DNA of 47,041 bases. It comes from Thermodesulfobacteriota bacterium (GTDB taxonomy: Bacteria; Thermosulfidibacterota; Thermosulfidibacteria; Thermosulfidibacterales; B14-G1). The stretch covers positions 1 to 47,041 of the forward strand of contig JAJSAC010000010.1 of assembly GCA_024274915.1 (NCBI GenBank). The letters are read 5' to 3'. This document shows, one piece after another, positions 15,142-47,041 of the stretch (position 1 is its first letter; every line of letters begins with the position of its first letter). The translations under genes and the position numbers were made by a program. The notes under the pieces were generated by a model. That model was not told the DNA's origin. It saw nothing but the letters and a program-made list of their open reading frames with translations, and did no database searches.

Positions 15142-16367
15142 CCCCTTTAGCCTGGAGGCTGAGGCCCCGTAACTTGGAGGAGCTTCTTGGACAGAGGCAC
15201 CTCCTCTCTCCGGGTAAACCCCTCCGGGTCATGATAGAAGAAGACATGGTAAGGTCCGTGATTTTTTACGGACCTCCGGGCACGGGAAAAACGTGCCTGG
15301 CCCATATCATTGCCTCCAGAACCCAAGCCCTCTTCATTGGCCTCTCAGCCGTCACCGCTGGCAAGAAAGACCTGATAGAAATCCTGGAAAGGGCGGACAA
15401 ACGCTGGAGAGAAAAGGCCCGCACCCTCCTATTCATCGACGAGATCCACCGCTTCAACAGGGTCCAACAGGAAACCCTCCTGCCAGCCGTGGAGAAGGGC
15501 CAAATCATCCTCATAGGAGCCTCCACTGAGAATCCCTACTTCGCCCTGGTGCCAGGGCTTCGGTCCCGGGCCCAGGTCTTCCCCTTCCATCCCCTATCGG
15601 AGGAAGACCTGGTGACCCTCATGAAGAGGGCCATAGAAAAGTTCTACCAGGACCTCACGGTGGACGAGGAGGCCTTGAACCTTCTGGCCCGCCTCTCCTC
15701 GGGAGACGCACGTAAGGCTCTTAACTGCCTAGAGCTAGGCATCACCATGGCCTCCAAAACCCATCCCCCAAAGCTCATCCCCCAGATGGTTACGGAAGTG
15801 CTCCAGAAAGCCATTCCCTACGATACCCAGCTCCACTACGACGCCATATCCGCCTTCATAAAGAGCATGAGAGGATCCGATCCCGACGCCACCCTCTTCT
15901 GGCTGGCATTCATGCTGGAAGGGGGAGAAGATCCCCTCTACATAGCCAGAAGGATCCTGATAGCAGCCTCAGAAGAGGTTGGGCTGGCCGATCCAGCAGC
16001 CCTTATCCTAGCCTCTGCCGCTTATCAGGGAGTGAAAGAGATCGGCCTGCCGGAAGGGGCCCTTCTCCTGGCCGAGGCCGCTCTATATGTGGCCACTGCC
16101 CCCAAGAGCAACCGCTCCTACCTGGCCCTAAAAAAGGCCCAAGAAGAGGTGAGAAAGAGGGGCGATATCCGGGTTCCTCCCCATCTCCAAGACTCCAGCT
16201 CTTACCTGAAGAAGGGCGGTTACCTCTATCCCCACGATTTTCCCCAGCACTTCGTCTACCAGGAGTACATGCCCCGGCTCCGCCTTTTTTACCAACCCAG
16301 CAGCCAAGGCAGGGAAGCCAAGATAAAGGAAAGGCTCAAGAAACTCTGGAAGGAACGCTATGGATAA
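15132..16367 (+). CDS. rarA: Replication-associated recombination protein RarA/MgsA
   Basis: AAA+ clamp-loader-like ATPase acting at stalled replication forks. The 411 residues have the N-terminal RPRNLEELLGQRHLL, Walker A FYGPPGTGKTCLA near residue 46, Walker [12 protein letters not shown], the characteristic sensor GASTENPYF, and the C-terminal tetramerisation domain with YDAISAFIKSMRGSDPDAT and LPEGALLLAEAALYVATAPKS. The start is GTG 15132 with GGAGG five bases before; both are in a hairpin (15112-15141). It overlaps fau by 8 bp. Confidence 0.95.
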   Translation: MEKAPLAWRLRPRNLEELLGQRHLLSPGKPLRVMIEEDMVRSVIFYGPPGTGKTCLAHIIASRTQALFIGLSAVTAGKKDLIEILERADKRWREKARTLLFIDEIHRFNRVQQETLLPAVEKGQIILIGASTENPYFALVPGLRSRAQVFPFHPLSEEDLVTLMKRAIEKFYQDLTVDEEALNLLARLSSGDARKALNCLELGITMASKTHPPKLIPQMVTEVLQKAIPYDTQLHYDAISAFIKSMRGSDPDATLFWLAFMLEGGEDPLYIARRILIAASEEVGLADPAALILASAAYQGVKEIGLPEGALLLAEAALYVATAPKSNRSYLALKKAQEEVRKRGDIRVPPHLQDSSSYLKKGGYLYPHDFPQHFVYQEYMPRLRLFYQPSSQGREAKIKERLKKLWKERYG

Positions 16368-16944
16368 GACCACCATAAGAAGGGAAATGGTGAAAAGGCG
16401 AAAGGGGCTTTCCCCCCAGGAGCGGGAAACCCTATCCTCAGCCATAAGGGACAAGGTGAAAGTTCGCCCTGAGTTAAAAGAGGCTACCCGGGTGGCCTTC
16501 TATCACCCTTCCTCAGGGGAAGTGGACATCCTACCCCTGGCCTGGGAATTCCTAGAGATGGGGAAGGTTATCCTCTTCCCCCGGGTAGAGGGAGAAGGAC
16601 TGGTCTTCTGCCCCGTGGAAAGCCCCCGGGAATTGAGCCCTGGCTACATGGGTATATTGGAACCCCTTACCCCTCCCCTCGCCCAAGAAGAAATAGACAT
16701 CTTTTTGGTTCCCGGAGTGGCCTACGATCTCCAGGGATACCGTCTGGGCATGGGAAGGGGTTTTTACGACAGGGTCTTATCTCAAAAAGGGGGATGGCAA
16801 CTGGCCCTGGGGGTGGCCTACGACTTCCAGCTGGTGGAAGCCCTCCCCAGGGACTGGTGGGACAGGCAGGTAGACTTGATCGTAACTGAAAGACGGATGC
16901 TCACACCAACGACAATCTGGCATCTGAAAAGGAGGATAAAATGA
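16360..16944 (+). CDS. fau: 5-formyltetrahydrofolate cyclo-ligase
   Basis: Converts 5-formyl-THF to 5,10-methenyl-THF with ATP. The 194-residue protein has the N-terminal [19 protein letters not shown], the substrate-site GEVDILPL and the C-terminal family motif [23 protein letters not shown]. With folD, encoded in the same gene run, it links to the one-carbon folate pool. It overlaps rarA by 8 bp and rny by 4 bp (ATGA), so these are one translationally coupled operon. Confidence 0.94.
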
Positions 16945-22776: not shown

Positions 22777-25200
22777 ATGAATCTCCAAGAAGTGTGGGGT
22801 ACCAGGATCCTCTGCTTGGATGGCGCCATGGGCACCATGATTCAGGAGGCAGGAATAACTTTCACCACAGCCCCGGAGTACCTCAACGTCAGCCATTCCC
22901 AACTCATATATGAGATCCACAAGGCCTACGTGGATGCAGGAGCCGACATCATAGAGACCAACACCTTTGGGGGAAACCGCGCCAAACTGGCCAACTACCA
23001 CTTAGAAGGAGAGGTCTACCGTCTCAACAAAGCAGCCGTGGAATTGGCCAGGAAAGCCGCCGAAGACAGGGCCCTGGTGGCTGCCTCCATGGGTCCCACA
23101 GGCAAGTTCCTGGAACCCGTAGGGGATCTCTCCTTCAGCCAGGCTGTGGAGATATTCAAGGAGCAGGCCTTGGCCTTCCAAGAGGGGGGAGCTGACCTGG
23201 TCATGGTGGAGACCATGTCCGACATCAAGGAGGCCAAGGCTGCTATAATTGCGGTGAAAGAGGTCACCCGACTACCCGTCTTTGCCCTGGCCACCTTCCA
23301 AGAAGACATGCACACCCTCCTGGGCATGTCTCCCGAAACCGTAGCCGTCACCCTAGAGGCCATGGGGGTCATGGCCCTAGGGGCCAACTGCAGCCTGGGA
23401 CCCGAAGGTCTCCTGGAAGTGGCCAAGAGGATGGTCGGCGTTACCTCCATGCCTTTGGTTTTCATGCCCAACGCCGGGCTACCACGCCTTGAAGATAACA
23501 AAACCGTCTTTCCCGCCACCCCCCAGGAGATGGCCCACTACGCCCGAAAGCTCGTGGAATTAGGGGCTTGGGTGGTGGGGGGCTGCTGCGGCTCCACCCC
23601 TACCCACATAAAAGAGATGGTCCAGGCCCTCCAAGACCAACCTCTAGTGAAGAGGGAGACACCCCCAGGGATGAAACTGGCTGGCAGACGCCAGGTGGTC
23701 TTCATAGGAGAAGGCCATTTCCCGGTGGTCATAGGGGAACGCATCAACCCCACCGGGAAAAAGGACTTCCAGGCCGAGCTGAGGTCAGGAAAAACGGCCT
23801 GGGCACGGGAGATGGCCAGAAGACAGGTAGAGGCCGGGGCCCACCTCCTGGATGTGAACGTGGGTATGCCCGGGGTAGACGAAGAGAGGGTCCTTCCCAT
23901 GGTGGCCACCGCTGTTCAGACCCAGGTGGACTGTCCCTTGGTCTTGGACTCCACAAATCCCCAGGCCATAGAGAAAGCACTCCAGCAGATAGATGGCAAA
24001 GTCCTCATCAACTCTGTATCGGGAGACGAGAGGTCCATGGAGGCCTTCCTCTCCCTGGCCCACCGCTACGGAGCCGCCCTCCTCATCCTTCCCCTGGATA
24101 AAAAGGGCATCCCCTCCACCCCCCAGGGGCGCGTGGCGATAGCCAAAAGGGTGACGGAAAAGGCCCTGGAAGTAGGAGTAACTGGGAACGATCTCATAGT
24201 GGACGGCCTTACCATGACTGTCAGCGCCCAAGCCCAGGGACCAAAAATCACCCTGGAAACAGTGCGCACCATAAAAAGGAAACTGGGACTTCCCACGGTC
24301 TTGGGAGTTAGCAATGTCTCCTTTGGTTTGCCCGACCGAGAGGTGGTGAACGCCACCTTCCTAGCCATGGCCATCGAGGCAGGACTGGACGCCGCCATCA
24401 TCAACCCCAACAGCAAGAGGATGATGGAAACCCTCTACGCAGGGGCCCTCTTAGCGGGACGAGATCCCCAAGCCGCCAAGTACCTGGAGGTTTCCCACAA
24501 GGGAGAAGGTAAGAGGGAAGAAAAAGACCAAGGGATTCACGATCCCAAAAAGGTTCTCTTCAACGCCGTTCTCCACGGCGACGAAGACCTGGCCCGGGAG
24601 AAAACCCAGGAGCTGCTCAGGGAAACGGTACCTTTGGAGATCAGCAACACCATCCTCATCCCTGCCATGGAAGAGGTAGGTAGACGGTTTGAAAGCAACC
24701 AGTACTTCCTCCCCCAAGTCATGGCTTCAGCCGCCGCCATGCAAGCCGCCTTCGCCGTGGTAAAAGAAGCCATGAAGGGCAAAGAAGGTCCTGTCAGGGG
24801 CACTGTCATTATGGCCACCGTAGAAGGAGACATCCACGACATTGGCAAAAACATTGTTTGCACCCTCTTGGAGAACCATGGCTTCCATGTCATTGACCTG
24901 GGCAAAAATGTGCCCAGGGAGAAGATAGTGACCAAGGCTAAGGAACTTTTGGAAGAGGGCCATCCCCCCGAGAAGTTGGCCGTGGGCCTTTCAGCCCTCA
25001 TGACCACAACCATGACTGAGATGAAGAAGGTGATAGAAACGTTGAAAGATGAAGGCCTTCAGGTCTTCACCTTGATAGGCGGTGCCGTGGTCACCCCCGA
25101 GTATGCCAGGGAGATCGGTGCTCACTACGCTAAAGACGCCATAGAAGCGATAAAGGTAGTAGAATCACTGATGAAAAATGAATCAAACGAAAAACACTAG
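22777..25200 (+). CDS. metH: Cobalamin-dependent methionine synthase lacking the reactivation domain
   Basis: Methylates homocysteine with methyl-THF through cobalamin. At 807 residues it has the homocysteine domain (DGAMGTMIQ; zinc cysteines in GANCSLGPEG and GGCCGSTP), the pterin domain (VIGERINPTGKKDF, LLDVNVGMPGVDE), a cap domain and the B12 domain with EGDIHDIGKNIV (the cobalt-ligand His near residue 687). The C-terminal SAM-binding activation domain of roughly 350 residues found in E. coli MetH is absent. This short form occurs in many anaerobes, which need a separate reactivation protein such as RamA-like ones. The last codons are AT-rich and overlap the next gene by 23 bp. Confidence 0.95.
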   Translation: MNLQEVWGTRILCLDGAMGTMIQEAGITFTTAPEYLNVSHSQLIYEIHKAYVDAGADIIETNTFGGNRAKLANYHLEGEVYRLNKAAVELARKAAEDRALVAASMGPTGKFLEPVGDLSFSQAVEIFKEQALAFQEGGADLVMVETMSDIKEAKAAIIAVKEVTRLPVFALATFQEDMHTLLGMSPETVAVTLEAMGVMALGANCSLGPEGLLEVAKRMVGVTSMPLVFMPNAGLPRLEDNKTVFPATPQEMAHYARKLVELGAWVVGGCCGSTPTHIKEMVQALQDQPLVKRETPPGMKLAGRRQVVFIGEGHFPVVIGERINPTGKKDFQAELRSGKTAWAREMARRQVEAGAHLLDVNVGMPGVDEERVLPMVATAVQTQVDCPLVLDSTNPQAIEKALQQIDGKVLINSVSGDERSMEAFLSLAHRYGAALLILPLDKKGIPSTPQGRVAIAKRVTEKALEVGVTGNDLIVDGLTMTVSAQAQGPKITLETVRTIKRKLGLPTVLGVSNVSFGLPDREVVNATFLAMAIEAGLDAAIINPNSKRMMETLYAGALLAGRDPQAAKYLEVSHKGEGKREEKDQGIHDPKKVLFNAVLHGDEDLAREKTQELLRETVPLEISNTILIPAMEEVGRRFESNQYFLPQVMASAAAMQAAFAVVKEAMKGKEGPVRGTVIMATVEGDIHDIGKNIVCTLLENHGFHVIDLGKNVPREKIVTKAKELLEEGHPPEKLAVGLSALMTTTMTEMKKVIETLKDEGLQVFTLIGGAVVTPEYAREIGAHYAKDAIEAIKVVESLMKNESNEKH

Positions 25201-25927
25201 AAAAAAGTTGCATAAGAACTCAAAAAACTATCAGCAAAGCACACTGCAGCTACTCTTGCAGAAAAGCATATTCTTTGAAAAGGATCTCCGTAACCTAGGC
25301 GAAAGACTGTTAGGTACAATAAAGGAAGGGATACTGTTACACAAAAGCGGACTCAAGAAGGAGGCCGTTCTATTCCTCAAAGAAAAGACTTTAAACTTCA
25401 TATTCTCAAAACAAACATTCCTATTGTACAAAGAAAGATTAAAACCTCAGCCACTAATGCCTCCATATTGTGGCATAAGAATTAGACAAGGAAACGCGCG
25501 AGATATAGAATATATAAATGCGAGTCCAACACAAAAAAGACAATTTGTCAAAGCACTAAATAGAGGGGACACCATCATAGTAGCCGAACATAAAGGAAAA
25601 ATAATTGCCTATTCTTGGGTATCTACACGGATATGGACCGATTTAAGCAAATTCTATGAACTCAAAACCGACGAGGTTTATGCCTGGGGAGCATACACGG
25701 ATAATGAATATAGAAGGAAGAGGATCATGAAAAGAATAGCCATCTTTAGAAGCAATTTCTTGCTAAAAGCAGGAAAACAATCTAAAATCAGCCTGGTGAA
25801 AACCGACAATGAAAAGGCCATAAAACTGTCAGAAGCGATTGGAGCAAAAAGAATAGGAACCTTTACTTCAATAAGAATACTAGGAATCGTAAAAAAGATA
25901 AATTTTGAAGAATCAGAAAGGAATTGA
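25178..25927 (+). CDS. GNAT-family N-acetyltransferase in an AT-rich island
   Basis: A 249-residue protein whose C-terminal part (about 97-235) has a GNAT fold: IRIRQGNARDIEYI, DTIIVAEHKGKIIAYSWVS, EVYAWGAYTDNEYRRKRIM (the acetyl-CoA loop) and LVKTDNEKAIKLSEAIGAKRIG. The first 95 residues are helical and of unknown family. Base composition is markedly AT-rich with many AAA, ATA and AAC codons, unlike all neighbours except the next gene. The only in-frame ATG near the beginning overlaps metH by 23 bp and lacks a clear Shine-Dalgarno sequence, so a TTG at 25208 is possible. The substrate is unknown; such enzymes are common in polysaccharide loci. Confidence 0.75.
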   Translation: MNQTKNTRKKLHKNSKNYQQSTLQLLLQKSIFFEKDLRNLGERLLGTIKEGILLHKSGLKKEAVLFLKEKTLNFIFSKQTFLLYKERLKPQPLMPPYCGIRIRQGNARDIEYINASPTQKRQFVKALNRGDTIIVAEHKGKIIAYSWVSTRIWTDLSKFYELKTDEVYAWGAYTDNEYRRKRIMKRIAIFRSNFLLKAGKQSKISLVKTDNEKAIKLSEAIGAKRIGTFTSIRILGIVKKINFEESERN

Positions 25928-25930
25928 TAA

Positions 25931-27247
25931 ATGATGCCCAGCATATACAGAAAGCTCTACTTCTGGAATCAGCTCCACAACCACCAGTACTGGGAAAAAG
26001 AGAAACAGGAAGCTTTACAGAAACAAAGGCTAGAGTTTATAGTAAAGTACGCTTATAAGAAGGTGCCATTCTACAAAAGAATAGCAAGGGAATACGACAT
26101 CAACATAGATGAGATAAAGCTACCCCAAGATATAACCAACTTGCCACAGGTGACGAGGAAAGATATACAGGACAACCCTGAAAGCTTCATATCACAAGAT
26201 ACCGATATGAAAAAACTCATAAAAAACCGCACTTCAGGATCAACTGGATCACCATTAATTGTTCACATGGATCAAAAAGCATTAGATTATAACCACGCAC
26301 TTTTACTTTACTATTTCTGGGAACTGGGCTTTAGACCATGGCACAAATGCGCCAATATCAGGGGGGCTGAAACCAAGAAACAGCTATGGTGGAAAGCCAT
26401 GCTCTCAACAATAAGAAAGGACATATCAACAAGAGCCGATCTGGAATCTAATACGACAAGTTTGATCAATATCCAACCCAACGTCATTTATGGATTTCCA
26501 TCGTACATAACACTGATAGCCCAGCAGCTAATAGAAAAGAACCATAGATTGACCAACACTACGGTGATCAATCATGGAGAAACCTTATATGGCTGGCAAA
26601 GGGAGATAATGACCAGGGCATTTAGTGAAAGGATATTCAATATGTATGGATCGACAGAGATTTACGTAATATCTTTCGAATGTGAGAAACATCAAGGTAT
26701 GCACTTGATAACAGATGCGGTGTTCTTAGAACTGGAGACAGAAGCTGGGGAACCAGCCAAGCCCGGCGAGGAAGGGAATATTACAATAACCATTTTGAAT
26801 AACCACTCTATGCCCCTCATAAGATATAAGATCGGAGATAAAGCAATCAGATCTGAAGAAGAAGATTGTTGGTGCGGCAGGAGTTGGCCTATCCTAATAA
26901 AAGAAATCGTGGGGAGAGAAGATGACTATTTTGTCAGCGCAGAGGGACAAAAGGTATCTTCCAAAAGCCTGGACTATGACGTTTTTTACAGCACAAAGAT
27001 AAAGCAGTTCCAGATCGTCCAAAAGGAAATAAACCGTCTAGAAATCTTGATCGTTAAAGCGAGAGGCTTCGACTCTGAAACCGAAAAAGCCCTAGAAATC
27101 ACCAAAGAACAAATGAAAAAGGCTCTCCACAATGATAAATTAGAAGTGCAAATAACTTACGTAGACACCATCCTAGGGGAAAAATCAGGGAAACAAAAAG
27201 CATTCATATCCAAGGTCGCCTCTCCATATATTGACACCTACCTCTAG
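25931..27247 (+). CDS. CapK/phenylacetate-CoA ligase-like adenylate-forming enzyme
   Basis: A 438-residue member of the CapK/PaaK-like adenylation family, seen in the ATP loop NRTSGSTGSPLIVHMD, FNMYGSTE and a C-terminal GEEGNITITILNNHSMPLIRYKIGD. It should activate a carboxylic acid as an acyl-AMP. Relatives with a GNAT gene occur in capsule or exopolysaccharide clusters, and the strong AT bias shared with the preceding gene (3 bp away) marks both as one recently acquired pair. A Cys-Gly pair near the C-terminus (CWCGRSWP) may bind metal. The substrate is unknown. Confidence 0.78.
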   Translation: MMPSIYRKLYFWNQLHNHQYWEKEKQEALQKQRLEFIVKYAYKKVPFYKRIAREYDINIDEIKLPQDITNLPQVTRKDIQDNPESFISQDTDMKKLIKNRTSGSTGSPLIVHMDQKALDYNHALLLYYFWELGFRPWHKCANIRGAETKKQLWWKAMLSTIRKDISTRADLESNTTSLINIQPNVIYGFPSYITLIAQQLIEKNHRLTNTTVINHGETLYGWQREIMTRAFSERIFNMYGSTEIYVISFECEKHQGMHLITDAVFLELETEAGEPAKPGEEGNITITILNNHSMPLIRYKIGDKAIRSEEEDCWCGRSWPILIKEIVGREDDYFVSAEGQKVSSKSLDYDVFYSTKIKQFQIVQKEINRLEILIVKARGFDSETEKALEITKEQMKKALHNDKLEVQITYVDTILGEKSGKQKAFISKVASPYIDTYL

Positions 27248-27287: not shown

Positions 27288-28476
27288 ATGTGGGAAGAAA
27301 AAAGAAGTGAAATTAAGACATTGAAAGACAGGCTAGAAAAGCTCGGGAGGCATCTTTGACATCCCCGGCAAGAAGGCCAGGATAGAAGAACTGGAGCAGA
27401 AAACCTACAAGCCCAATTTCTGGGACAATCCTGAGGAGGCCAAAAACATCCTGAAGGAGAAGAGCCACCTTGAGGAGATATTGGAGTCTTATCAGGAGTT
27501 ACAGCAGGGTCTAGAGGACGCTGAAACCCTGGTGGAGCTGGGAGAAGAAGCCCAGGATCTCTCCCTCCTCACAGAAATAGAAGAACAGATAGAGCACCTT
27601 TCTAAAAAGATCGCCAAAGCCGAGTTGAAGACCCTCCTCTCGGGCGAGCAGGACAGGAACAATGCCATAGTCTCCATCAACCCAGGAGCGGGAGGAACCG
27701 AGTCCCAAGACTGGGCAGCCATGCTCTTTCGCATGTACACCCGATGGGCCCAGGATAAGGGCTACAAAGTGAAACTCCTGGACTACCAGAGCGCCGACGA
27801 CGCTGGCATCAAAGGGGCTACCTTCATTATAGAAGGACCCTACGCGTACGGCTATCTCAAAGGTGAGACAGGGGTCCATCGCCTGGTTCGCATCTCCCCC
27901 TTCGACGCCGCCCGCCGACGTCACACCTCCTTTGCCTCGGTCTTCGTGTATCCCGAGGTTGAAGAAGACATGGAGGTGGAAATCAACGAAAAAGACCTAA
28001 GAATAGAGACATACCGAGCCAGCGGACCTGGGGGCCAGCACGTAAACGTAACAGATTCAGCAGTGCGCATCACCCACATCCCCACAGGTATCGCAGTCCA
28101 ATGCCAGAACGAGCGTTCCCAGCACAAGAACAGAGAGATGGCCATGAAAATCCTCAAGGCCCGCCTTTACGAATTAAAAAAGCGGGAAAAAGAGAAGGAA
28201 AAAGAGGAACTGGAAAAGAGCAAGAAAAACATTGCCTGGGGCTCCCAGATCAGGTCCTATGTCCTCCACCCCTACCGGCTGGCAAAAGATCACCGCACAG
28301 GGGTTGAAAGGGGTAATGTAGATGGGGTATTGGATGGTGACCTGGACCCTTTTATAGAAGGTTACCTTCTGTGGGCCAGGAAAGAGCAAGAGTCCTCGAA
28401 AGGTGGGGAAACCACCCTTCGGGGTAGAAAGGAAGGAGAGAACACACGTCCTTCTAAGTCCCAGGGTGCCTCGTAA
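27288..28476 (+). CDS. prfB: Peptide chain release factor 2, programmed +1 frameshift
   Basis: Recognises UGA and UAA. The 5' frame starts at ATG 27288 (AAGGAGG upstream) and reads 23 codons to an in-frame TGA at 27357; a +1 shift at CTT-TGA-C (27354-27360) joins the main frame. Residues then run [15 protein letters not shown]. The SPF anticodon-like motif ([18 protein letters not shown]) and GGQ motif ([19 protein letters not shown]) are intact. The shifted product is 395 residues, about 30 longer than E. coli RF2, due to a polar C-terminal tail after YLLWARKEQ. That tail overlaps the region just upstream of rpsB. Confidence 0.95.
27345..27360 (+). promoter_or_regulatory. RF2 autoregulatory frameshift site
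   Basis: GGGAGG (27345-27350), CAT, CTT and then TGAC form the canonical RF2 signal: an internal Shine-Dalgarno-like element, a slippery CTT codon, and a UGA followed by C. When RF2 is scarce, ribosomes slip +1 and make full-length RF2. This proves that the TGA is functional and not a mutation. Confidence 0.93.
28330..28358 (+). promoter_or_regulatory. Putative internal promoter for the rpsB operon
   Basis: TTGGAT (28330-28335), a 17-base spacer and TATAGA (28353-28358) lie inside the 3' end of prfB. The transcript would have a leader of about 160 bases before rpsB, with a small hairpin (GGTGG-GGAAA-CCACC, 28402-28416). An S2 leader-type element is possible but not recognised. Confidence 0.45.
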
Positions 28477-34220: not shown

Positions 34221-35465
34221 ATGAAGAGATTGATTGGGGTGTTAGTGGGCGTCCTTTTCCTGGCAGTCTCCATGGGCCCCGCCTGGGCAGGCATGAATAA
34301 GCTGGTCATAGGCTTCACCATGTCCCAGACGGGCAAGTTCAATTCCGAGTCCAAAGAACAGTTCCAGGGCTTAAAGCTATGGGCTGACCAGGTAAACGCC
34401 AAGGGCGGCATTTACGTGAAGATGGTGGGCAAAAAACTGCCCGTCGTCTTCAAGTACTACGACGATGAAAGTAGCAAAGACAGAGTTCAGCAGCTCTACA
34501 CCAGGCTCATCAGCCAAGACAAAGCCGACTTCCTCATCAGCCCCTACTCCAGCGGCTTGACGGCCTCCGCTGCCATCATCGCCGAGCAATACGGCAAGGT
34601 GATGATGGCCACCGGCGCCGCATCCGACAGCATCTTTAACAAAGGCTACACCCACGTCTTCCAGATCTATACCCCTGCCAGCCGCTATCTCACCGATGCC
34701 ATGGACATCCTGACAAAGGTAGACCCTAAGGCCAAGAAGATCGCCATCGTCTACGAAAACTCCAAGTTCGCCAAGGCCGTGTGCACCTCTGCCAAAAAAT
34801 ACGCCGAAGAGAAGGGGTTCAAGGTGGTCCTCTTCGAAGCCTATGACTCCGGGACCACCGACTTCACCAGTTTTATCAACAAAATCAAGGCCACCAACCC
34901 CGACGCCATCATTGGTGGCGGCCACTTCGCCGACGGCGAGACCTTCACCAAACAGCTCTTCGAGCAAAAGGTGAAGGTTAAGCTGGTATCCTTGCTGGTA
35001 GCCCCTGCCGTGCCCGAGTTTAGCGAACTGGGCAAGGCCGCCCTCTACGTCACCGGCCCCTCCCAGTGGGAACCCCTGGCCAAGTTCAGCAAGACGTCAG
35101 CCAAGAGTGCCTGGTTCGGCCTGTCCTCCAAGGAGTTCGTCAAGGCCTACAAAAAAGCCTACGGCTACGTTCCCGGCTATCACGCCGCCGGTGGCTATGC
35201 CGCAGGCCTGGTGCTCCAGAAGGCCATCGAAGATGCCGGCTGCATCATGACCAACATGGTGAAGAAGGCTCTGGAGAAAATGGACATCACCACCTTTTAC
35301 GGCAGGATCAAGTTCGACACCGGCAACTACTACGGCCGCCAGGTCGGCCACTCCATGGTCTATCTCCAGTGGCAGAAGAAGGACGGCAAGATGGTGAAAG
35401 AGGTGGTTTGGCCTTTGGAGGCCAAATCCGCCAATCTCGTCTATCCCTTCTACAAGAAGTACTAA
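34221..35465 (+). CDS. livK: Periplasmic amino-acid-binding protein of a LIV-type ABC transporter
   Basis: A 414-residue periplasmic binding protein with a cleavable signal peptide (residues 1-23, ending AWA). The first strand LVIGFTMSQTGKFNSESKEQ and the conserved KLPVVFKYYDDESSKDRVQ, DFLISPYSSGLTASAAIIAEQYG and KKIAIVYENSKFAKAV mark the type-I binding fold of the LivK/LIV-HAAT group. Bound ligand may be branched-chain or other amino acids or related compounds. AAAGGAGGGTGA precedes the ATG. It heads the livK-livH-livM-livG-livF operon. A weak promoter may lie near 34135. Confidence 0.9.
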   Translation: MKRLIGVLVGVLFLAVSMGPAWAGMNKLVIGFTMSQTGKFNSESKEQFQGLKLWADQVNAKGGIYVKMVGKKLPVVFKYYDDESSKDRVQQLYTRLISQDKADFLISPYSSGLTASAAIIAEQYGKVMMATGAASDSIFNKGYTHVFQIYTPASRYLTDAMDILTKVDPKAKKIAIVYENSKFAKAVCTSAKKYAEEKGFKVVLFEAYDSGTTDFTSFINKIKATNPDAIIGGGHFADGETFTKQLFEQKVKVKLVSLLVAPAVPEFSELGKAALYVTGPSQWEPLAKFSKTSAKSAWFGLSSKEFVKAYKKAYGYVPGYHAAGGYAAGLVLQKAIEDAGCIMTNMVKKALEKMDITTFYGRIKFDTGNYYGRQVGHSMVYLQWQKKDGKMVKEVVWPLEAKSANLVYPFYKKY

Positions 35466-35488: not shown

Positions 35489-36346
35489 GTGCTTTCTGCC
35501 TGGCTTGGTGCGACCCTGAGCGGCATCCTACTGGGCCTCCTCTACGGGCTGGCCGCCATCGGTCTGAACCTGATATGGGGCGTGATGAACGTCATCAACC
35601 TGTCCCACGGTGCCTTCATCGCCGTGGGCATGTTCGCCTCCTACTTCATGGCTAACTACCTCCACCTCTCCCCTTTCCTGGGGGTCTTCCTGGTCCTGGC
35701 CACGGGCGTGGTCCTGGGCATGATCACCTACTTCATCTCCCTTCACCGCATCATTTCCGCCCCCGAGCTCTCCACCTTGCTGGCCACCTACTCGGTCAGC
35801 CTCATCATCATCGGCTTGGGAACATTCATTTTCACCACCAACCCCAGGGCCATAGACATCACCATGGGCTCGGTTAGCGTGGGAGGAACGGTGCTACCCA
35901 TGACCCGAATCCTAACCGGGGCCTTCTCCGTCATCTTCACCCTGTGGCTCTACTACTTCCTCTATAAAACCTGGTCTGGCAAAGCCATCAGGGCCGTTTC
36001 CATGAACCGGGACGCAGCAGAACTCATGGGCGTCAACACCACCATGAGTTTAGCCCTTGCCTTTGGAATCGGTGTGGCCCTGGCCATGACAGCCGGGGCC
36101 CTCACCGCCACCATATTCCCCTTTACCATCCTGTCCGGCGGCGGTTACGAATTGAAGAGCTTCGTCATATGCGTTCTGGGAGGCTTAGGAAGTCCCCTAG
36201 GCGCTCTGTTGGGAGGTCTCATCCTGGGGCTCATCTAAAACCTGGTCACCCTTAAGATACCCACCAGCTATGTACCCTTTCTGGAATTCGCCATACTGGT
36301 CTTCATCCTCATCGTAAAACCCACGGGCTTGCTGGCCAGGAGATAA
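35489..36346 (+). pseudogene. livH: LivH permease with an in-frame premature stop
   Basis: Integral membrane permease of the LIV-type ABC importer. Translation from GTG 35489 gives a good LivH (LLYGLAAIGLNLIWGVMNVINLSHG, then several membrane helices) until TAA at 36236-36238, where relatives have a Glu or similar residue (GLIxNLVT). The same frame continues without interruption for 35 codons, NLVTLKIPTSYVPFLEFAIL and FILIVKPTGLLARR, to a natural stop at 36344-36346, two bases before livM. A single G-to-T change (GAA to TAA) explains it. The truncated 249-residue form lacks the last helix. It may be inactive, partly active, or rescued by read-through; a sequencing error is also possible. Confidence 0.85.
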
Positions 36347-36348
36347 CC

Positions 36349-37311
36349 ATGGGCAAGGGGAAAACTCTCTTCTGGCTTATCCCCGCTCTCCTAATCATCA
36401 TCCTTATTCCTCCAGTGACCGGTTCTGTCACCACCAGGGAAGGTGTCTTTCTCATCCTTATGTACGTCACCCTGGCCGTCAGCCTGAACATCATCCTGGG
36501 ATACACGGGGTACGTGAGCTTCGGACACATCGTCTTCTACGGCATAGGGGGATACGTGGCTTTCTACCTCATGAAATTCCACGGAATCCACCTCATCCCG
36601 GCCATGATCATGGGAGGCATAGGGGCAGCCATAGCCGCCTTTGCCCTGGGTGAAGCCGTCCTAAGGCTTCGAGGGGCCTTCTTCGCCATCGCCACCATAG
36701 GCGTCAATGAAGCGGTGAAAGCCCTGGTGAACAATCTTAACTTCATCGGAGGAGCGGAAGGCCTCTTCTTCAACTTCAGGATCTATAACACCTATGGAGG
36801 AGCAACCAAAGCCATTTGGTTCTCCTACTACACCATGGCTGCCCTCACCATCACCACGGTAATCGCCGCATACCTCATTAAAAAATCTAAGTTCGGACTG
36901 GGACTCATGGCCATCCGGGAAGACGAGGACGCCGCCATCATCCTTGGAGTCAACGCCAAAAGGTACAAGAGCCTGGCCTACGCTGCGTCCGCCCTGTTCC
37001 CGGGAATGGTGGGTGCTGTCTTCTTTTTTAAAGCGGGAAACATCGAGCCCCACGACGCCTTCCACCTCATCAAGTCCATCGAGATGATCTTCATGGTGAT
37101 GCTGGGAGGCTACGGCAGCGTGACGGGGGCCGTAACCGGTGCCCTGGTCTACGAAAGACTGAAGGGATTCCTCCTGGTGAACCCCCTCTTCAAAAACCTC
37201 CACATGGCCATCTCAGGGGTGATCCTCCTCCTCATCGTCCTCTTCATGCCCCAAGGCATCGTCGGATTTATCAGGGAAAAGTCCAAGAAACTCAGGGAGA
37301 TGTTAGAATGA
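36349..37311 (+). CDS. livM: LivM permease of a LIV-type ABC transporter
   Basis: The second membrane subunit, 320 residues with about ten hydrophobic helices. The family motifs are clear: SLNIILGYTGYVSFGHIVFYGIGGY, the EAA-like cytosolic loop SKFGLGLMAIREDEDAAIILGVNAKRYKSLAY, and VMLGGYGSVTGAVTGAL. It starts with ATG 36349, two bases after the original end of the livH frame. It overlaps livG by 4 bp. Confidence 0.94.
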   Translation: MGKGKTLFWLIPALLIIILIPPVTGSVTTREGVFLILMYVTLAVSLNIILGYTGYVSFGHIVFYGIGGYVAFYLMKFHGIHLIPAMIMGGIGAAIAAFALGEAVLRLRGAFFAIATIGVNEAVKALVNNLNFIGGAEGLFFNFRIYNTYGGATKAIWFSYYTMAALTITTVIAAYLIKKSKFGLGLMAIREDEDAAIILGVNAKRYKSLAYAASALFPGMVGAVFFFKAGNIEPHDAFHLIKSIEMIFMVMLGGYGSVTGAVTGALVYERLKGFLLVNPLFKNLHMAISGVILLLIVLFMPQGIVGFIREKSKKLREMLE

Positions 37312-38066
37312 TTCTCCAAGTAGAAGACGTGACCAAAACCTTTGGAGGCCTGGTCGCCCTAAGCGACGTCGCCTTCCAGGTGGAAGAGGGGGAGATCCTG
37401 GGGATCATCGGGCCCAACGGCGCTGGCAAGACCACCCTGTTCAATGCCATCAGCGGGGTTTTCAAAATTGATAAGGGACGGGTAAAGTTCCAAGACAGGG
37501 ATATCACTTCTCTCCCTCCCAATGCCCGGGCCAGACTGGGCATCGCCCGGACCCATCAGATCGTTAAGCCCCTCAACGACCTCACAGTGGTGGAGAACGT
37601 CATGGTAGGGGCCTGCTTCGGCAAGGGCAACGCCAGCCTGCCCGCAGCCCGGAAGAAGGCCCAAGAGGTTCTGGAGTTCGTAGGGCTGAAAGAAAAGGGG
37701 GAAGTTTTGGCAGGCAAACTGAACGTGCCCGAAAAGAAGCGCCTGGAGATGGCCCGAGCCCTGGCCTCGGACCCTGCCATCATCCTCCTGGACGAGGTAC
37801 TTGCAGGACTCAACCCCATAGAGGTTTCCAGCATGCTAAAAGTGATCAAGGCCATAAGGGACAAGGGAATCACCATCCTCATGATAGAACATCTCATGCA
37901 CGCCATCATGAACGTATCAGATAGGGTCATGGCTCTAGTCTACGGACGGAAGGTCTCCGAAGGAACCCCAGGAGAGGTGGCCAACGACCCCCAGGTGATA
38001 GAGGCCTACCTGGGAGATCCCGACCTGGCCCTGAAACTCTTGAAAGACAAGAGGAGGAGAGGGTAA
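37308..38066 (+). CDS. livG: LivG ATPase of the LIV-type ABC transporter
   Basis: The 252-residue nucleotide-binding subunit. Walker A is GPNGAGKTTLFN and Walker B AIILLDEVLAGLNP, followed by the conserved switch His of IEHLMHAIM. The signature motif reads LNVPEKKRLEMARAL in place of LSGGQ; related LivG proteins often have degenerate signatures of this kind. It overlaps livM and shares one base with livF. Confidence 0.94.
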   Translation: MILQVEDVTKTFGGLVALSDVAFQVEEGEILGIIGPNGAGKTTLFNAISGVFKIDKGRVKFQDRDITSLPPNARARLGIARTHQIVKPLNDLTVVENVMVGACFGKGNASLPAARKKAQEVLEFVGLKEKGEVLAGKLNVPEKKRLEMARALASDPAIILLDEVLAGLNPIEVSSMLKVIKAIRDKGITILMIEHLMHAIMNVSDRVMALVYGRKVSEGTPGEVANDPQVIEAYLGDPDLALKLLKDKRRRG

Positions 38067-38782
38067 TGGATCAGCCAACTTTAAGAGTGGAAAGCCTGGA
38101 AACGGGATACGGAGAAGTCCAGATCTTATGGGGCATCAACCTGGAAGTCCCAATGGGAAACCTCACCTCCATCCTGGGCGCCAATGGGGCAGGCAAAACC
38201 ACCCTCCTCCGGGCCATAACGGGCATACTACCCGTTTGGAAGGGCAAGATCACTTTCCAGGAGGAAGACATCACCCGCCTTTCTCCCCACGAAAGGGCTA
38301 TCAAAGGGCTCATCATGATACCCGAAGGCAGGATGATCTTCCCCGAGATGACGGTGCTGGAAAACCTTGAAATGGGGGCATTCAACAAAAAGGCCCGGGC
38401 TAACTTGAAGAAAAACATGGAGCATGCCTTAGCCCTCTTTCCCCGGCTGGAGGAACGCTTATCCCAGAAGGCGGGCACCCTCAGCGGCGGCGAACAACAG
38501 ATGCTGGCTATCGCCAGGGGTCTCATGGCCGAGCCTCAAGTACTAATTTTTGACGAACCCAGTCTGGGACTGGCTCCAAAGCTGGTAATAGAGGTCTTCG
38601 AGATCATCCAAAAACTCAAGGAAGAAGGCATCACCATGCTTCTAGTGGAGCAGAATGTCCACCTCTCCCTGGCCATCACTGACTATGCCTATGTCCTGGC
38701 CGAAGGGAAAGTGGTCATGGAAGGCAAAGGGGAAGATCTGGAAGAATCGGAAGAGGTGAAAAGGGCCTACCTGGGGGTCTAA
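38066..38782 (+). CDS. livF: LivF ATPase of the LIV-type ABC transporter
   Basis: The second ATPase, 238 residues. Walker A GANGAGKTTLLRAI, an intact signature TLSGGEQQMLAIARGLM, Walker B VLIFDEPSLGLAP and the LLVEQNVHLSL switch region are all present. The ATG overlaps the livG stop by one base (TAATG). The next gene, a second binding protein, starts about 80 bp further on. Confidence 0.95.
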   Translation: MDQPTLRVESLETGYGEVQILWGINLEVPMGNLTSILGANGAGKTTLLRAITGILPVWKGKITFQEEDITRLSPHERAIKGLIMIPEGRMIFPEMTVLENLEMGAFNKKARANLKKNMEHALALFPRLEERLSQKAGTLSGGEQQMLAIARGLMAEPQVLIFDEPSLGLAPKLVIEVFEIIQKLKEEGITMLLVEQNVHLSLAITDYAYVLAEGKVVMEGKGEDLEESEEVKRAYLGV

Positions 38783-38860
38783 TTGGGTCTGCCATCGAAC
38801 TTTGGCGCCTCCCTCCCCTCTCAAAACAAAAAACAAATCTCTCCGAGAGGGAGCCTTAGG

Positions 38861-40075
38861 ATGAGAAACCCAAAATGTGCCAAAATTCAAGACCTAACCC
38901 CACTGGTTTTGGTCCTGGTCATCTTGCTCACTCCCTGGACCAAGGCTCAATCACAGGCTTCAGCCTGGAAGGTAGCCATTGTCCTGCCCATCACGGGCCC
39001 CCTGAGCCCCATTGGTGAGAAACTCAAAAAAGGGTATCAACTGGCCCTGAAGAAAGCTGAGAAAGAGGGGCAAAGCCTGGAGGTCCTATGGGTGGACGAA
39101 AGGCTCCTAAACCAGGAAGAAAGCCGAAAGACCCTCGCCGAAACCCTCCGGGACCCCCACACCGTAGCCCTCTTAGGAGCCTATTCCAGCCACGCCACCT
39201 TCAACCTGGCAGGAATGGCCGAGAGACTCCGAGTCCCCCTGATCATTCCCTCTTCCATGGCTGACCGCCTCACCCGCCAGGGCTACCAGTGGGTCTTCAG
39301 GGTATGCCCATCCAGTAGCCAATACCTGAGGGGGTTCGTCTCCTACCTCATCACCCTCTTCCCCTCCCCCCCCACCACCGCCATTCTCTACGAAAACACG
39401 CCATGGGGGCAGGAACTTCAGAGAAAGCTGACCAAAATCCTGGGGGACGCTGGACCCGTTAAAACCCTGACCTTGGCCTACACCCCGGGAGCCAACCACT
39501 ACCCCAAAATCATGAAAGAGACAGAAAAAAAGAGGCCTTCCCTGGTCATCCTCGTTTCCTCTGCTGCTGACACCTTGGCCCTGTACAAGAACCTGCAGAC
39601 CCTGAAAATTCGGTGCTTGGTTGCTGGTGCCGGCATGGGCCTTTCATCCCCACGCCTCATGGAAAAGACCCTCCCCTCCGTACCCGGTCTCCTCTTTCCA
39701 TCCCCCTGGGTTCCCCAGGCCAACTGGCCTGGGGCCCGGAACTTCGCCCAAAGGTACGAAAAAGCCTACGGAGAGCCGGCAGACTACCACTCGGCAGAGG
39801 CCTACTCCGCCCTCTCAATCCTTTCTCGGGTCCTGAAAAAGGTGGGATGCAACCCTGAAGAGCCACGTTGCCGAAGCAGAATAAGGAAGACCTTGGAACA
39901 GACCCCCTTCTCCACACCTCTGGGCCCGGTGAAATTCATCAGTAACGAGGGCCACACCCACCAAAATCGGCTCTTACCCCTCATGGTCCAGATCCAAGGA
40001 GGCAAGGCCGTGGTAGTCCATCCCCAGAAAGCGGCGGAAGGAAAGGTTCACCTACCATTCCCCAAGGGAAATTGA
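38861..40075 (+). CDS. Second LIV-type periplasmic binding protein
   Basis: A 404-residue secreted binding protein of the same fold as livK (KVAIVLPITGPLSPIGEKLKKG, VALLGAYSSHATFNLAGMAERLRVPLIIPSSMADRLT, WVFRVCPSSSQYLRGFV) but clearly divergent. A signal peptide occupies the first 35 or so residues. ATG 38861 was chosen because GAGGGAG lies upstream and the signal begins there. It leads a three-gene module with its own livG/livF pair but no permeases. It may bind a different ligand and feed the same LivHM channel. Confidence 0.85.
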   Translation: MRNPKCAKIQDLTPLVLVLVILLTPWTKAQSQASAWKVAIVLPITGPLSPIGEKLKKGYQLALKKAEKEGQSLEVLWVDERLLNQEESRKTLAETLRDPHTVALLGAYSSHATFNLAGMAERLRVPLIIPSSMADRLTRQGYQWVFRVCPSSSQYLRGFVSYLITLFPSPPTTAILYENTPWGQELQRKLTKILGDAGPVKTLTLAYTPGANHYPKIMKETEKKRPSLVILVSSAADTLALYKNLQTLKIRCLVAGAGMGLSSPRLMEKTLPSVPGLLFPSPWVPQANWPGARNFAQRYEKAYGEPADYHSAEAYSALSILSRVLKKVGCNPEEPRCRSRIRKTLEQTPFSTPLGPVKFISNEGHTHQNRLLPLMVQIQGGKAVVVHPQKAAEGKVHLPFPKGN

Positions 40076-40079
40076 AGCC

Positions 40080-40814
40080 ATGCCTCCCCCCATTTTAGAA
40101 CTCTCCAGGGTAACCAAACACTTTGGGGGACTTACCGCTGTGAATCAGGTTGATCTCGTCCTTTACCGAGGAGAAATACTGGGACTCATTGGCCCCAATG
40201 GAGCAGGTAAGACCACCCTGTTCAACATGATAGCAGGGTTCCACAAACCCTCCAAAGGGCGCATCCTTTTCAAAGGTATGGACATTACAGGGATGAAACC
40301 CCACAAAATCTGTAAACTGGGCATAGCCAGAACCTTCCAGATCACGAAGCCCCTCAAAAAACTCACAACCCTGGAAAACGTCATGGTGGGAGCCCTGCCA
40401 AAAGAGAAAACCGTCCCTGGGGCCAGGGAAAGGGCTTTGAATATTCTAAAACTCATGGGTCTGGACCACAGGGCGTCCCTTCCAGCAGGGACCCTCACCC
40501 CAGGGGAGAAAAAGAGACTGGAAATGGCCAGGGCTCTGGCCACAGATCCATCCCTTCTCCTGCTGGACGAAGTCATGGCAGGCCTCACTCCCACCGAGAC
40601 CCAGGATATGCTGGAACTGTTGAGAAAGATTGAGGCCCAAGGCATCAGCATGGTGGTGGTGGAACACAACGTGAAGGGAGTCATCCGGATCGCCCACAGA
40701 ATGGTGGCCCTAAATTATGGTCAAAAGATAGCCGAAGGTCCCCCCCACGAGGTCATCACCCATCCGGAAGTGATAAAGGCCTACATGGGAGAAGAAGGCC
40801 CATGCTTCGAGTGA
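40080..40814 (+). CDS. Second LivG-like ATPase
   Basis: A 244-residue ABC ATPase with Walker A GPNGAGKTTLFNMI, signature LTPGEKKRLEMARALAT and Walker B LLLLDEVMAGLTPTE, and a switch VVVEHNVKGVI. The signature variation mirrors that of the first LivG, so both belong to the same subfamily. It starts 4 bp after the binding-protein stop and overlaps the next gene by 13 bp. Confidence 0.93.
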   Translation: MPPPILELSRVTKHFGGLTAVNQVDLVLYRGEILGLIGPNGAGKTTLFNMIAGFHKPSKGRILFKGMDITGMKPHKICKLGIARTFQITKPLKKLTTLENVMVGALPKEKTVPGARERALNILKLMGLDHRASLPAGTLTPGEKKRLEMARALATDPSLLLLDEVMAGLTPTETQDMLELLRKIEAQGISMVVVEHNVKGVIRIAHRMVALNYGQKIAEGPPHEVITHPEVIKAYMGEEGPCFE

Positions 40815-41512
40815 GAAACCTCCAGGTGGCCTATGGCGACAGCCAGGTGCTATGGGATATCTCTTTTTCCGTGGAAGAAGGGGAAATAGTGGCCATCGTG
40901 GGACCCAACGGAGCGGGAAAATCTACCCTCTTGAAGACCATTGCCGGCCTTCTGTCTCCCCTCTCGGGGGAGATAGTTTTTCGGGGAGAGACCGTCCACG
41001 GGCTTCCTCCCCACAAAGTGGCCGAGAAAGGGATAATCCTGGTACCCGAAGGCAAGAGGGTCTTCCCCCTCCTGACGGTCCAGGAGAATCTCAAGATAGG
41101 GGCCTACTTGCCAAGGGCCAGGAGCCGGACCCGAGAAAACATGGAGAAGGTCTTCCATCTCTTTCCCTTCTTAAGGGACCGGAGAAGCCAGCGGGCGGGC
41201 ACCCTCAGCGGCGGCGAACAACAGATGCTGACCATAGCCAGGGGCCTCATGGCCCAGCCATCACTCCTCCTCCTGGACGAACCCAGCCTGGGTTTAGCCC
41301 CCAAAACGGCGAAAGAGATCTTCTCCATCATAAAGAAAGCCAGAAAGGAGGGAACCACTGTGCTCCTGATAGAACAGAACATCCATCTCTCCCTCCGGGT
41401 GGCCGACCATGCCTACGTTATGGAGAAGGGACGAATAATCCTTCAGGGCCCCGGCCATCAACTCCTGGAAGACCCCCACTTGAAGGAAACCTACCTGGGG
41501 ATCTCCCCTTAA
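40802..41512 (+). CDS. Second LivF-like ATPase
   Basis: A 236-residue ATPase with Walker A GPNGAGKSTLLKTI, the full signature TLSGGEQQMLTIARGLM, Walker B LLLLDEPSLGLAP and LLIEQNIHLSLRV. It closely matches the first LivF. A stretch around the signature is identical in DNA as well (ACCCTCAGCGGCGGCGAACA in both), so the copies may have exchanged sequence by gene conversion. It ends the liv region. Confidence 0.94.
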   Translation: MLRVRNLQVAYGDSQVLWDISFSVEEGEIVAIVGPNGAGKSTLLKTIAGLLSPLSGEIVFRGETVHGLPPHKVAEKGIILVPEGKRVFPLLTVQENLKIGAYLPRARSRTRENMEKVFHLFPFLRDRRSQRAGTLSGGEQQMLTIARGLMAQPSLLLLDEPSLGLAPKTAKEIFSIIKKARKEGTTVLLIEQNIHLSLRVADHAYVMEKGRIILQGPGHQLLEDPHLKETYLGISP

Positions 41513-41717: not shown

Positions 41718-43358
41718 ATGAAAGTAAAAGGTATGAGCATAACTCTAGTATTATTTTTGGCTTTAATAGCCCTCATCACGACTACAGAAAGGGGAGGAGC
41801 CATAGACTACGAAGGAGGAAACTTGGTTATAGATTATTACACCAAAATCTACACCAACAGGATCACGGGAAACAAAGAAAGATCCCCTTTAGAACCAGGT
41901 TTCCAAGGATACAACGAGCTGATGATAAGCCTTGAGCATCACCTGTCCCAAAAAGGCACCATCAATGGATACCTAGAAGGCATTCAAACGTCAGACAAGA
42001 ACGAAAACGACAAGGAGTTTGCTATCAGGAGCTTCTACATCAAATTCCTCCAAGAAGAAAAGGTGGACATCACCCTGGGAGATTTCGCCGCCAACTTCAG
42101 CCAGTACACCCTAGGCACAGGACTTCTAGGCTTCAAGGCCATGGTAAGCCCGGTAAAATACCTCAAGATATGGGCCATCGCAGCCAAAAACAGGGAAAGA
42201 ACCACCTACGGTGTTGGAGACGAATACAGGAGATACTCCCAGGGGGGCAGGCTAGAGGCAAACTTCCTCCGAAAGAACTGTAAAGTGGGGTTCAATTTCA
42301 TCAACACAGAGGTGGACCCCAGTTCCCTTCACACCAATACCGGGGTCCTTCCTTACTCCAACCAGGTAGCCAGCATAGACGCCGACCTGCGCCTCTTTTC
42401 AGACGCCCTCCAAATCCGAGGGGAAATTGCCCGAAGCCGGTACGACCCCGACAGAGACAACCCCACCGCAGTGGCACTATACGACAACGCCTACAGGGCC
42501 AGGTTGGAAATAATACCCTGGCAGCCTGTCTCTTTTTACATCTCCTGGGAACGGGTGGAGCCCTACTTCAACAGCGTCCTGGGCTCAGCCTACGTGGACA
42601 ACGACCAAACCCAGGTGGGGTTCACCATCACCCCCACCCAGTGGCTGGAGATCTCCGGCTACTATCTCCGACAGTACGATGACATAGACAACAACCTGGA
42701 TTATAGAACCCTCTCGTGGACAGAGGACCTGTCCATCACCCTCTCCCCCCTCTTCTTCCTCAAAAACTTCCTGCAACAGATGAGCCTCACCATCCACGGG
42801 TCCAGGGAAGATTCATACTCCAGGGACCATCCCCGGTCCACAGACACCCGGGACAAGGCCATCGATATCACCCTGTCCCAGCCCATTTGGAAGCTGAATT
42901 TCTCGTTGAGCATGGAAAACAGGTGGTTCAAGGACCATACCGACTCCAGCCAAGACACCAGAACAGAGGCGTATACCGCCTCTGCCAGTACCAACTTCGA
43001 CCTTCTGGGGATTTCTTGGGGCCTCAGCATGGAAGAGCGGTACCAAGTGGATGAAACCAACTACGAAAACGGAGGCACCGAAGATTTCAACACCAGCCTG
43101 GCTCTAAGCGCCCTGTACCAGAAAACAGACACGGCCCTGAGCATATCCTGGTCCCAGGAAGACTCCGACATGGGAGACCCCTCGGCCAACACCCTCACCA
43201 CAGCCTTCACCGCTTCCCTGAGACAGGGACTGAAAAGACTCATCAAAATCGATGGAGAGTTGGAACTCAGATACAACTATGTGAACCACAACGTAGAAGA
43301 AGACACGTACGACTATAAAGAGCAGACCCTTTTCATGGGTCTAAAAGTGAGTTTCTGA
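41718..43358 (+). CDS. Outer-membrane beta-barrel protein of unknown function
   Basis: A 546-residue exported protein. A hydrophobic N-terminus (MSITLVLFLALIALITTTERGGA) acts as signal peptide. The remainder is made of alternating polar/aromatic strands (LVIDYYTKIYTN, ITLGDFAANFSQYTLGTGLLG, LELRYNYVNHN) and ends with Phe (LFMGLKVSF), the classic C-terminal BAM signal. It probably forms a porin-like barrel. No specific family could be named. It is followed 11 bp later by a secreted CARDB protein, and both precede the adhesin, suggesting a common surface system. Confidence 0.8.
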   Translation: MKVKGMSITLVLFLALIALITTTERGGAIDYEGGNLVIDYYTKIYTNRITGNKERSPLEPGFQGYNELMISLEHHLSQKGTINGYLEGIQTSDKNENDKEFAIRSFYIKFLQEEKVDITLGDFAANFSQYTLGTGLLGFKAMVSPVKYLKIWAIAAKNRERTTYGVGDEYRRYSQGGRLEANFLRKNCKVGFNFINTEVDPSSLHTNTGVLPYSNQVASIDADLRLFSDALQIRGEIARSRYDPDRDNPTAVALYDNAYRARLEIIPWQPVSFYISWERVEPYFNSVLGSAYVDNDQTQVGFTITPTQWLEISGYYLRQYDDIDNNLDYRTLSWTEDLSITLSPLFFLKNFLQQMSLTIHGSREDSYSRDHPRSTDTRDKAIDITLSQPIWKLNFSLSMENRWFKDHTDSSQDTRTEAYTASASTNFDLLGISWGLSMEERYQVDETNYENGGTEDFNTSLALSALYQKTDTALSISWSQEDSDMGDPSANTLTTAFTASLRQGLKRLIKIDGELELRYNYVNHNVEEDTYDYKEQTLFMGLKVSF

Positions 43359-44737: not shown

Positions 44738-47041
44738 ATGGGTGTTAAATTACGAAGGGGGTTCTTGGCATTATTTATCTCCCTGTTATTGGCCCTCCCA
44801 GCGGTGTTGTTCACCTCGCCTCGAACGACCAAGGCTGCTGACTACGCAGCTCCCTCTCCAAACGCTACAGCCAGTAGTTCAAGCGGCACTGCCACCGCCG
44901 TGGGAGACTATGCCTCCGCCAACAACAGTTCAGCCGACTACATGTCGGCCTTCGGCTATCGTGCTTCCGCCAACTATGGCTACGGCACAGCTATCGGAGC
45001 CTACTCCACCGCCTACTATCAAGGCACAGCCAATGGTTATAACGCTACGGCTCACTCCTATGGCACAGCCACGGGCTACAACGCCTACGCCTGGTTGTAT
45101 GCCACGGCTACAGGCTACAATGCCACTGCTTCCGGCGACTACAGCTCGGCATATGGCTACAACGCCACTGCTTCCGGCGACTACAGCTCAGCATTCGGAT
45201 ATGATACCAGTGTTTCCGGAGACTACAACTCGGCTTTCGGGTACAATTCTGACATCTCAACCTCGGGTACTCAGAACTCCACCTTTGGTTACAACTCCAC
45301 AATATCCAATTCGGGGAACGCCAACTACGCTGCAGGCCATCAGGTATACGTAACCAGCTCAGGAAGCGGAAATGTGGCAACGGGAAACGGTTCTAATGTT
45401 TCCAGCTCCGGAAACTACAACTACGCATCAGGGATATTTTCCGACATCACATCCTCGGGAAGCTATAACACAGCAGTGGGCTACGGCTCAGATGTTTCCT
45501 CTGCAGGTGATAGCAACTCGGCCTTCGGGTACAACTCCGATATCTCTAACTCGGGGAATTACAATACAACTTCAGGCTACCAGTCTACGATCACCAGTTC
45601 CGGTAATTATAACTATGCCGCTGGCAGCCTCTCCGATGTATCTTCCTCCCAAGGTAGGAACCTGGCATTAGGTTACGAGTCCAATGTAACAAGCTCCGGC
45701 TACAGCAACTTCGCCATCGGCAGCCTCTCCGATGTATCTTCCTCCCAAAACCGTAACCTGGCCCTGGGCTATGACGCCAATGTATCCAGCTCGGGATCCA
45801 GCAACTACGTCATAGGCAGCGAGAGCAACATCTCCTCTTCGGGAGATGGAAATGTGGCCATGGGCTACAGCAACGACATCACTAACTCCCAAGATGGCAA
45901 CTCCTTATTCGGGTATGACTCCAGCATCACATCCGGCAGCTACAGCACCTCTATAGGATACGACAACGCCTTGACCAGCGTCACAACAACCGACGTGTTT
46001 GGACACAGCAACGCTGTCTCCAGTACCACAGACAGCACGGTTGTGGGCCACGACAACACCATGGCTACTGGTGGTCAGGGTACCGTAATAGGCGAATACA
46101 ACACCGTAGACACATCCAGCTCCGGCTATGTGGCAGGAGTCAGCAACCAACTCCACAACCAGAGTACTGGAACGGTAACGGGAACCAGTAATGTGTTGAA
46201 CTCCAGCACTGGCTACATTTACGGAGCATCAAACAGCCTTGCTTCAAGCACCGCCCAAGTCTTCGGAACCGGGAACACCTTCAATAGCAGCATCGGTCGG
46301 GTATTCGGAGACAACAACACTTTCACCCCAGGTACCAACGGATTGGCTGTGGGCGACGGCAACCAGTTCCTCAATAACAGTTCGGGAGAGGCTTTCGGAG
46401 ACGGAAATACCTTTGACAACTCTTCCGGAGCAATCTACGGGGCCGGCAATACCTTAACAGGTAGCATCGGCGCCCTGGCCGTTGGTGGAGCAAATACCCT
46501 TACTAACAGTTCCTACAGCGCCGCCGTGGGTATGTATACCCAGGTGAACGGCAATTACAACCTGGCCTTTGGAACGGGAAACGGCTCCACAGACTTCACC
46601 TCCATCACGGGCAACTACAGCACTGCCATTGGATATAACGCCTCCGTCACAGGCGACAACGGCATCGCCTTTGGTACCGGGGCACAGGCCCAGACCAACG
46701 ACGTGGCCATCGGCAATAACGCCGTAGTTAGCGCCGACTCCAGTGTGGCCATCGGTGACAACTCCAGCATCGGTTCAGGTTCCACCAACAGCGTCGCCAT
46801 CGGCTACTACGCCGCAGTTGCCGCATCTTCCCCCAACAGCGTGGCCATTGGTCAGTACTCCAGCGCCTCTGGCACCAGCAGCACTGCTGTGGGCGACAAT
46901 GCTTCCGCCTCCGATACCGACACCACCGCCATCGGCCATGACGCTAGTGCCTCCGCTGAAGGTGCTCTCGCCGCTGGCTACAGCACCGACGCCTCCGGAC
47001 TCTACTCCATGGCTGCCGGCTACGATTCAACAGCCTCCGGG
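44738..47041 (+). CDS. Trimeric autotransporter adhesin, YadA-like head (partial)
   Basis: The frame is open from ATG 44738 (GGAAAGGAGG before it) to the window edge, 768 codons with no stop. A signal peptide (residues 9-33) is followed by repeat after repeat of the YadA-head type, such as TAIGYNASVTGDNGIAFGTG and NSVAIGQYSSASGTSSTAVG. Each of about 14 residues forms one turn of a left-handed beta-roll. The N-terminal portion uses longer units rich in Tyr and Ser, such as SAFGYNSDISNSGNYN. The middle has units like VFGDNNTFTPGTNG. The last third is regular YadA type. The coiled-coil stalk and membrane anchor must lie beyond the window. Confidence 0.92.
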   Translation, partial: MGVKLRRGFLALFISLLLALPAVLFTSPRTTKAADYAAPSPNATASSSSGTATAVGDYASANNSSADYMSAFGYRASANYGYGTAIGAYSTAYYQGTANGYNATAHSYGTATGYNAYAWLYATATGYNATASGDYSSAYGYNATASGDYSSAFGYDTSVSGDYNSAFGYNSDISTSGTQNSTFGYNSTISNSGNANYAAGHQVYVTSSGSGNVATGNGSNVSSSGNYNYASGIFSDITSSGSYNTAVGYGSDVSSAGDSNSAFGYNSDISNSGNYNTTSGYQSTITSSGNYNYAAGSLSDVSSSQGRNLALGYESNVTSSGYSNFAIGSLSDVSSSQNRNLALGYDANVSSSGSSNYVIGSESNISSSGDGNVAMGYSNDITNSQDGNSLFGYDSSITSGSYSTSIGYDNALTSVTTTDVFGHSNAVSSTTDSTVVGHDNTMATGGQGTVIGEYNTVDTSSSGYVAGVSNQLHNQSTGTVTGTSNVLNSSTGYIYGASNSLASSTAQVFGTGNTFNSSIGRVFGDNNTFTPGTNGLAVGDGNQFLNNSSGEAFGDGNTFDNSSGAIYGAGNTLTGSIGALAVGGANTLTNSSYSAAVGMYTQVNGNYNLAFGTGNGSTDFTSITGNYSTAIGYNASVTGDNGIAFGTGAQAQTNDVAIGNNAVVSADSSVAIGDNSSIGSGSTNSVAIGYYAAVAASSPNSVAIGQYSSASGTSSTAVGDNASASDTDTTAIGHDASASAEGALAAGYSTDASGLYSMAAGYDSTASG

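Follow-up and report, generated by a model that had tools for sequence, protein, structure and literature searches.

The liv operon in the window, by which we mean the whole 47,041-nucleotide stretch of DNA analysed here, raises one question: why does the reading frame of its permease gene livH end at an in-frame TAA when the conserved C-terminal part of the protein is still encoded directly behind it? Our answer, to which we assign a probability of roughly 60%, is a recent nonsense mutation of a glutamate codon (GAA, Glu250) to TAA in an otherwise intact operon, either fixed or present in part of the population. The features concerned are listed below.

34221..35465, + strand: periplasmic substrate-binding protein (SBP), intact (Peripla_BP_6, Pfam PF13458; colinear in relatives)
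35489..36238, + strand: first 249 codons of livH, ending in the premature stop; BPD_transp_2 (only 3-242 of the 269 Pfam profile positions)
36236..36238, + strand: premature TAA, codon 250 (Glu in relatives)
36239..36346, + strand: remnant of the frame, with 35 codons for the LivH C-terminus (last transmembrane helix) and the natural TAA
36349..37311, + strand: livM, intact (Pfam PF02653; 92% identical to sister species G002)
37308..38066, + strand: livG, intact (profile scan and relatives)
38066..38782, + strand: livF, intact (relatives)

The livH gene starts with GTG at 35489 and, including the remnant, spans 35489-36346. Behind the premature stop, 35 sense codons (36239-36343) lead to a TAA at 36344-36346, and the early stop thus shortens the frame by 36 codons compared to its natural end. 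A 2-base spacer (CC) separates this natural stop from the ATG of livM at 36349, and the last codons of the remnant contain an undamaged AGGAGA (36338-36343), the likely ribosome-binding site of livM. A preliminary description had reported a lone in-frame TAA at 36236 with an intact C-terminus, a natural stop two bases before livM and no damage to the rest of the operon. These coordinates and this description are right, and the genes for the SBP, LivM, LivG and LivF are all uninterrupted. The combination of a stop and a conserved tail is far beyond chance. The sequence of the site is present once in the assembly, so this livH has no additional intact copy there. Viral contigs, scanned for the pattern, gave no match.

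When read through the stop, LivH matches the whole BPD_transp_2 domain (PF02653, profile 3-269), and up to the stop it matches profile positions 3-242 of 269 with 108 bits. It shares its sequence family, the SBP-H-M-G-F gene order and the predicted fold with LivH/UrtB-type permeases, from which it differs by the interruption at codon 250, and the genes for the SBP, LivM, LivG and LivF lie alongside it. The 249-residue truncated form, which was the form scanned, scores 55 bits against a cut-off of 379 for the LivH equivalog (NF008011) and 123 against 250 for UrtB (TIGR03409). Because these scores are well under the curated cut-offs, no substrate is assigned and the assignment is limited to a LIV-type (HAA) permease. 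The AlphaFold2 model of the read-through protein (pLDDT 89, pTM 0.88) places the final helices at residues 236-253 and 259-276, and the stop is predicted to cut the former near its end and to remove the latter entirely. No relative in the PDB was found by sequence, and the predicted fold is weakly and distantly like that of type II importer permeases, e.g. PsaC and BhuU.

Directly after the operon, the window holds a second set of genes for SBP2, LivG2 and LivF2 (38783-41512, + strand) without permeases. This set is also present in the congeneric genome G001 (L184), and G002 has SBP2 and no LivG2 in the remaining 680 bases of its contig. The preliminary description had this set depend on the LivH permease of the operon. 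Sharing of this LivHM by the second ATPase set is plausible, but the genome also encodes further intact permease pairs. A 546-residue open reading frame (ORF) without a Pfam match (41718-43358, + strand) lies directly downstream of it.

For the comparison with relatives, 60 related genomes (one per species, just three from this genus) and 80 public-genome loci were used. Codon 250 is GAA or GAG, and hence Glu, in every scored homologue that reaches the site, with the sole exception of a distant homologue (31% identical) that has CAG. The sister species (94% identical) has GAG, as does G003, and G004 has GAA. Glu250 is among the 24 invariant columns of a 42-sequence alignment in which the row of the window is read as Glu. 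In all complete homologues of the same type the alignment runs past the stop and the protein has the same end point as the remnant, and none in the 60 genomes and 80 loci ends at codon 249. The gene thus carries a premature stop where its relatives have a sense codon, as expected of a nonsense pseudogene. Since close relatives have GAA or GAG, a change of GAA to TAA is the simplest account, in line with the single G-to-T substitution at a Glu codon that had been proposed from the sequence of the window. In G001, codons 230-253 of livH are missing between two contigs and the site is unreadable.

The tail behind the stop indicates the age of the lesion. Compared to the sister species, codons 251-285 have a pS of 0.43 and a pN of 0.026, similar to the values for codons 1-249 (0.44 and 0.043). 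The single amino acid difference in the tail, P258A, is assigned to the branch of the sister species, as all outgroups have Pro, and no amino acid change in the tail falls on the lineage of the window. Under neutrality, about 24 changes would be expected on this branch (a rough figure, from half of a dS of 0.63 and 77 nonsynonymous sites) and none is seen. As a rough estimate from a Poisson bound, constraint on the tail would have been absent for less than about 12% of the window branch. The preliminary description had noted a remnant frame without further damage, and the absence of amino acid changes on the lineage of the window bears this out and supports a recent origin. An undecayed tail therefore implies either that the lesion is recent or that the consensus of the metagenome assembly is wrong here. 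Of the three explanations offered earlier (a recent mutation, read-through or suppression, an assembly error), the first and the last stand, whereas the second is disfavoured by the presence of both RF1 and RF2, the absence of a UUA tRNA among those found and the lack of a downstream RNA fold better than that of shuffled sequences.

The alternative that survives best is that the base is wrong in the consensus, or that the assembler picked a minority or chimeric variant, and that livH is intact in the living population. We consider this a realistic possibility, though clearly the less probable one. The genome is a draft of 77 contigs with 93% completeness, and the lesion is a single substitution without other decay; an isolated lesion of this kind is as compatible with one error as with one mutation. 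The contigs of G001 break within livH (end of C237 and start of C76; L119, L118) at the very stretch in which the window has its stop. Assembly of this region may therefore be difficult, although the break is in a different genome. On the other hand, the assembly is not visibly rich in errors. ORFs of the sister species were compared with the window (45 ORFs) and with three other stretches of 20 kb (50 ORFs), approximately 95 ORFs in total with about 60 kb outside the window, and no other clear stop-interrupted conserved gene was found. The other stops that were flagged precede gene starts or apparently fall within antisense or alternative-frame ORFs, and one match is in two separate pieces (L170, about 15848-16502). 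A search of the genome with the PF02653 profile gave 12 matches, of which this livH alone has an internal stop; none of the 11 other BPD_transp_2 permease matches of the assembly does. A literature search on nonsense or assembly errors in genomes assembled from metagenomes yielded nothing directly useful.

Far less probable is that read-through or suppression of the UAA yields enough full-length LivH. The reading frame of the tail is conserved, as it would be if it were translated, but recency explains this conservation. Both RF1 and RF2 are encoded (the genome has two genes with an RF-1 domain, prfB being the copy in the window), and the 36 tRNA genes found include none with the anticodon UUA, though at 93% completeness a tRNA gene may be missing; a suppressor tRNA is accordingly considered unlikely. 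livH itself naturally ends in TAA, as do 6 of the 20 window genes sampled. These natural stops, the two release factors and the stop-free other permeases exclude a genome-wide recoding of TAA. Downstream RNA structure is likewise rejected, as the fold of the RNA 3' of the stop is not better than those of shuffled sequences (z +1.75). No relative has the stop, which leaves no sign of conserved recoding, and neither the relatives nor many genes show read-through of the codon. Read-through of the livH UAA is thus unlikely beyond a weak background level, which may occur, and we give next to no credence to a site-specific read-through that would set the dose of full-length permease in this species.

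The window copy of prfB (release factor 2; 27288-28476, + strand) has a canonical programmed +1 frameshift site, with ATG at 27288, AGG CAT CTT TGA C at 27348-27360 and an in-frame continuation thereafter. Upstream of it lie genes for a GNAT-like acetyltransferase and for a protein whose AMP-binding match is below threshold (25178-27247, + strand), neither of which occurs at the colinear position in the sister genome. At 44738-47041 (+ strand), a long ORF with YadA head repeats (Pfam PF05658) runs off the contig.

As improbable as functional read-through is a functional short permease of 249 residues, or one completed by a tail made separately through reinitiation: with a match to profile positions 3-242 of 269, these residues account for the greater part of the Pfam domain, but no homologue ends there, the last helix of the model would be lost, and the tail offers CTG, ATA and a late TTG but neither ATG nor GTG in frame.

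Under a recent nonsense mutation, translation would end at residue 249, giving a product without the end of the penultimate helix and without the whole last transmembrane helix. Such a truncated LivH would most likely fail to assemble with LivM, LivG and LivF, leaving the importer inactive. Based on the model, loss of the last helix is expected to make the permease unstable or inactive, and the truncation thus probably inactivates this LivHMGF system. As livM keeps its own likely ribosome-binding site, its translation may continue, perhaps at reduced efficiency. The loss may be covered by other LIV-type importers of the genome. At least three intact LivH/LivM pairs (contigs C48, C14 and C28; about 30% identical to this one) are found elsewhere, and compensation by these pairs is possible because they adjoin their own LivG/LivF-like ATPases. 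The sequence directly shows the stop, its occurrence in this permease alone, the conserved tail and the undamaged remainder of the operon, and from these we infer the loss of function, its compensation and the reality of the base, as opposed to a consensus error.

The stop is a real but ordinary feature of the assembled sequence and not a new mechanism. Prematurely stopped genes in ABC importer operons that are otherwise intact are known. In Brucella melitensis, the pseudogene BMEII0099 contains premature stops, while the four remaining genes of its ABC system are predicted to be functional (PMC2821768). Both cases have one prematurely stopped gene among intact partner genes of an importer operon, whereas BMEII0099 has multiple stops and livH a single one without further decay. 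If the stop is an error, it shows once again that a single stop in a draft metagenome assembly should be backed by reads. If it is real, an uncultured lineage would have lost one of its several LIV-type importers, which bears on no general question, and livH should be flagged as disrupted in the genome annotation.
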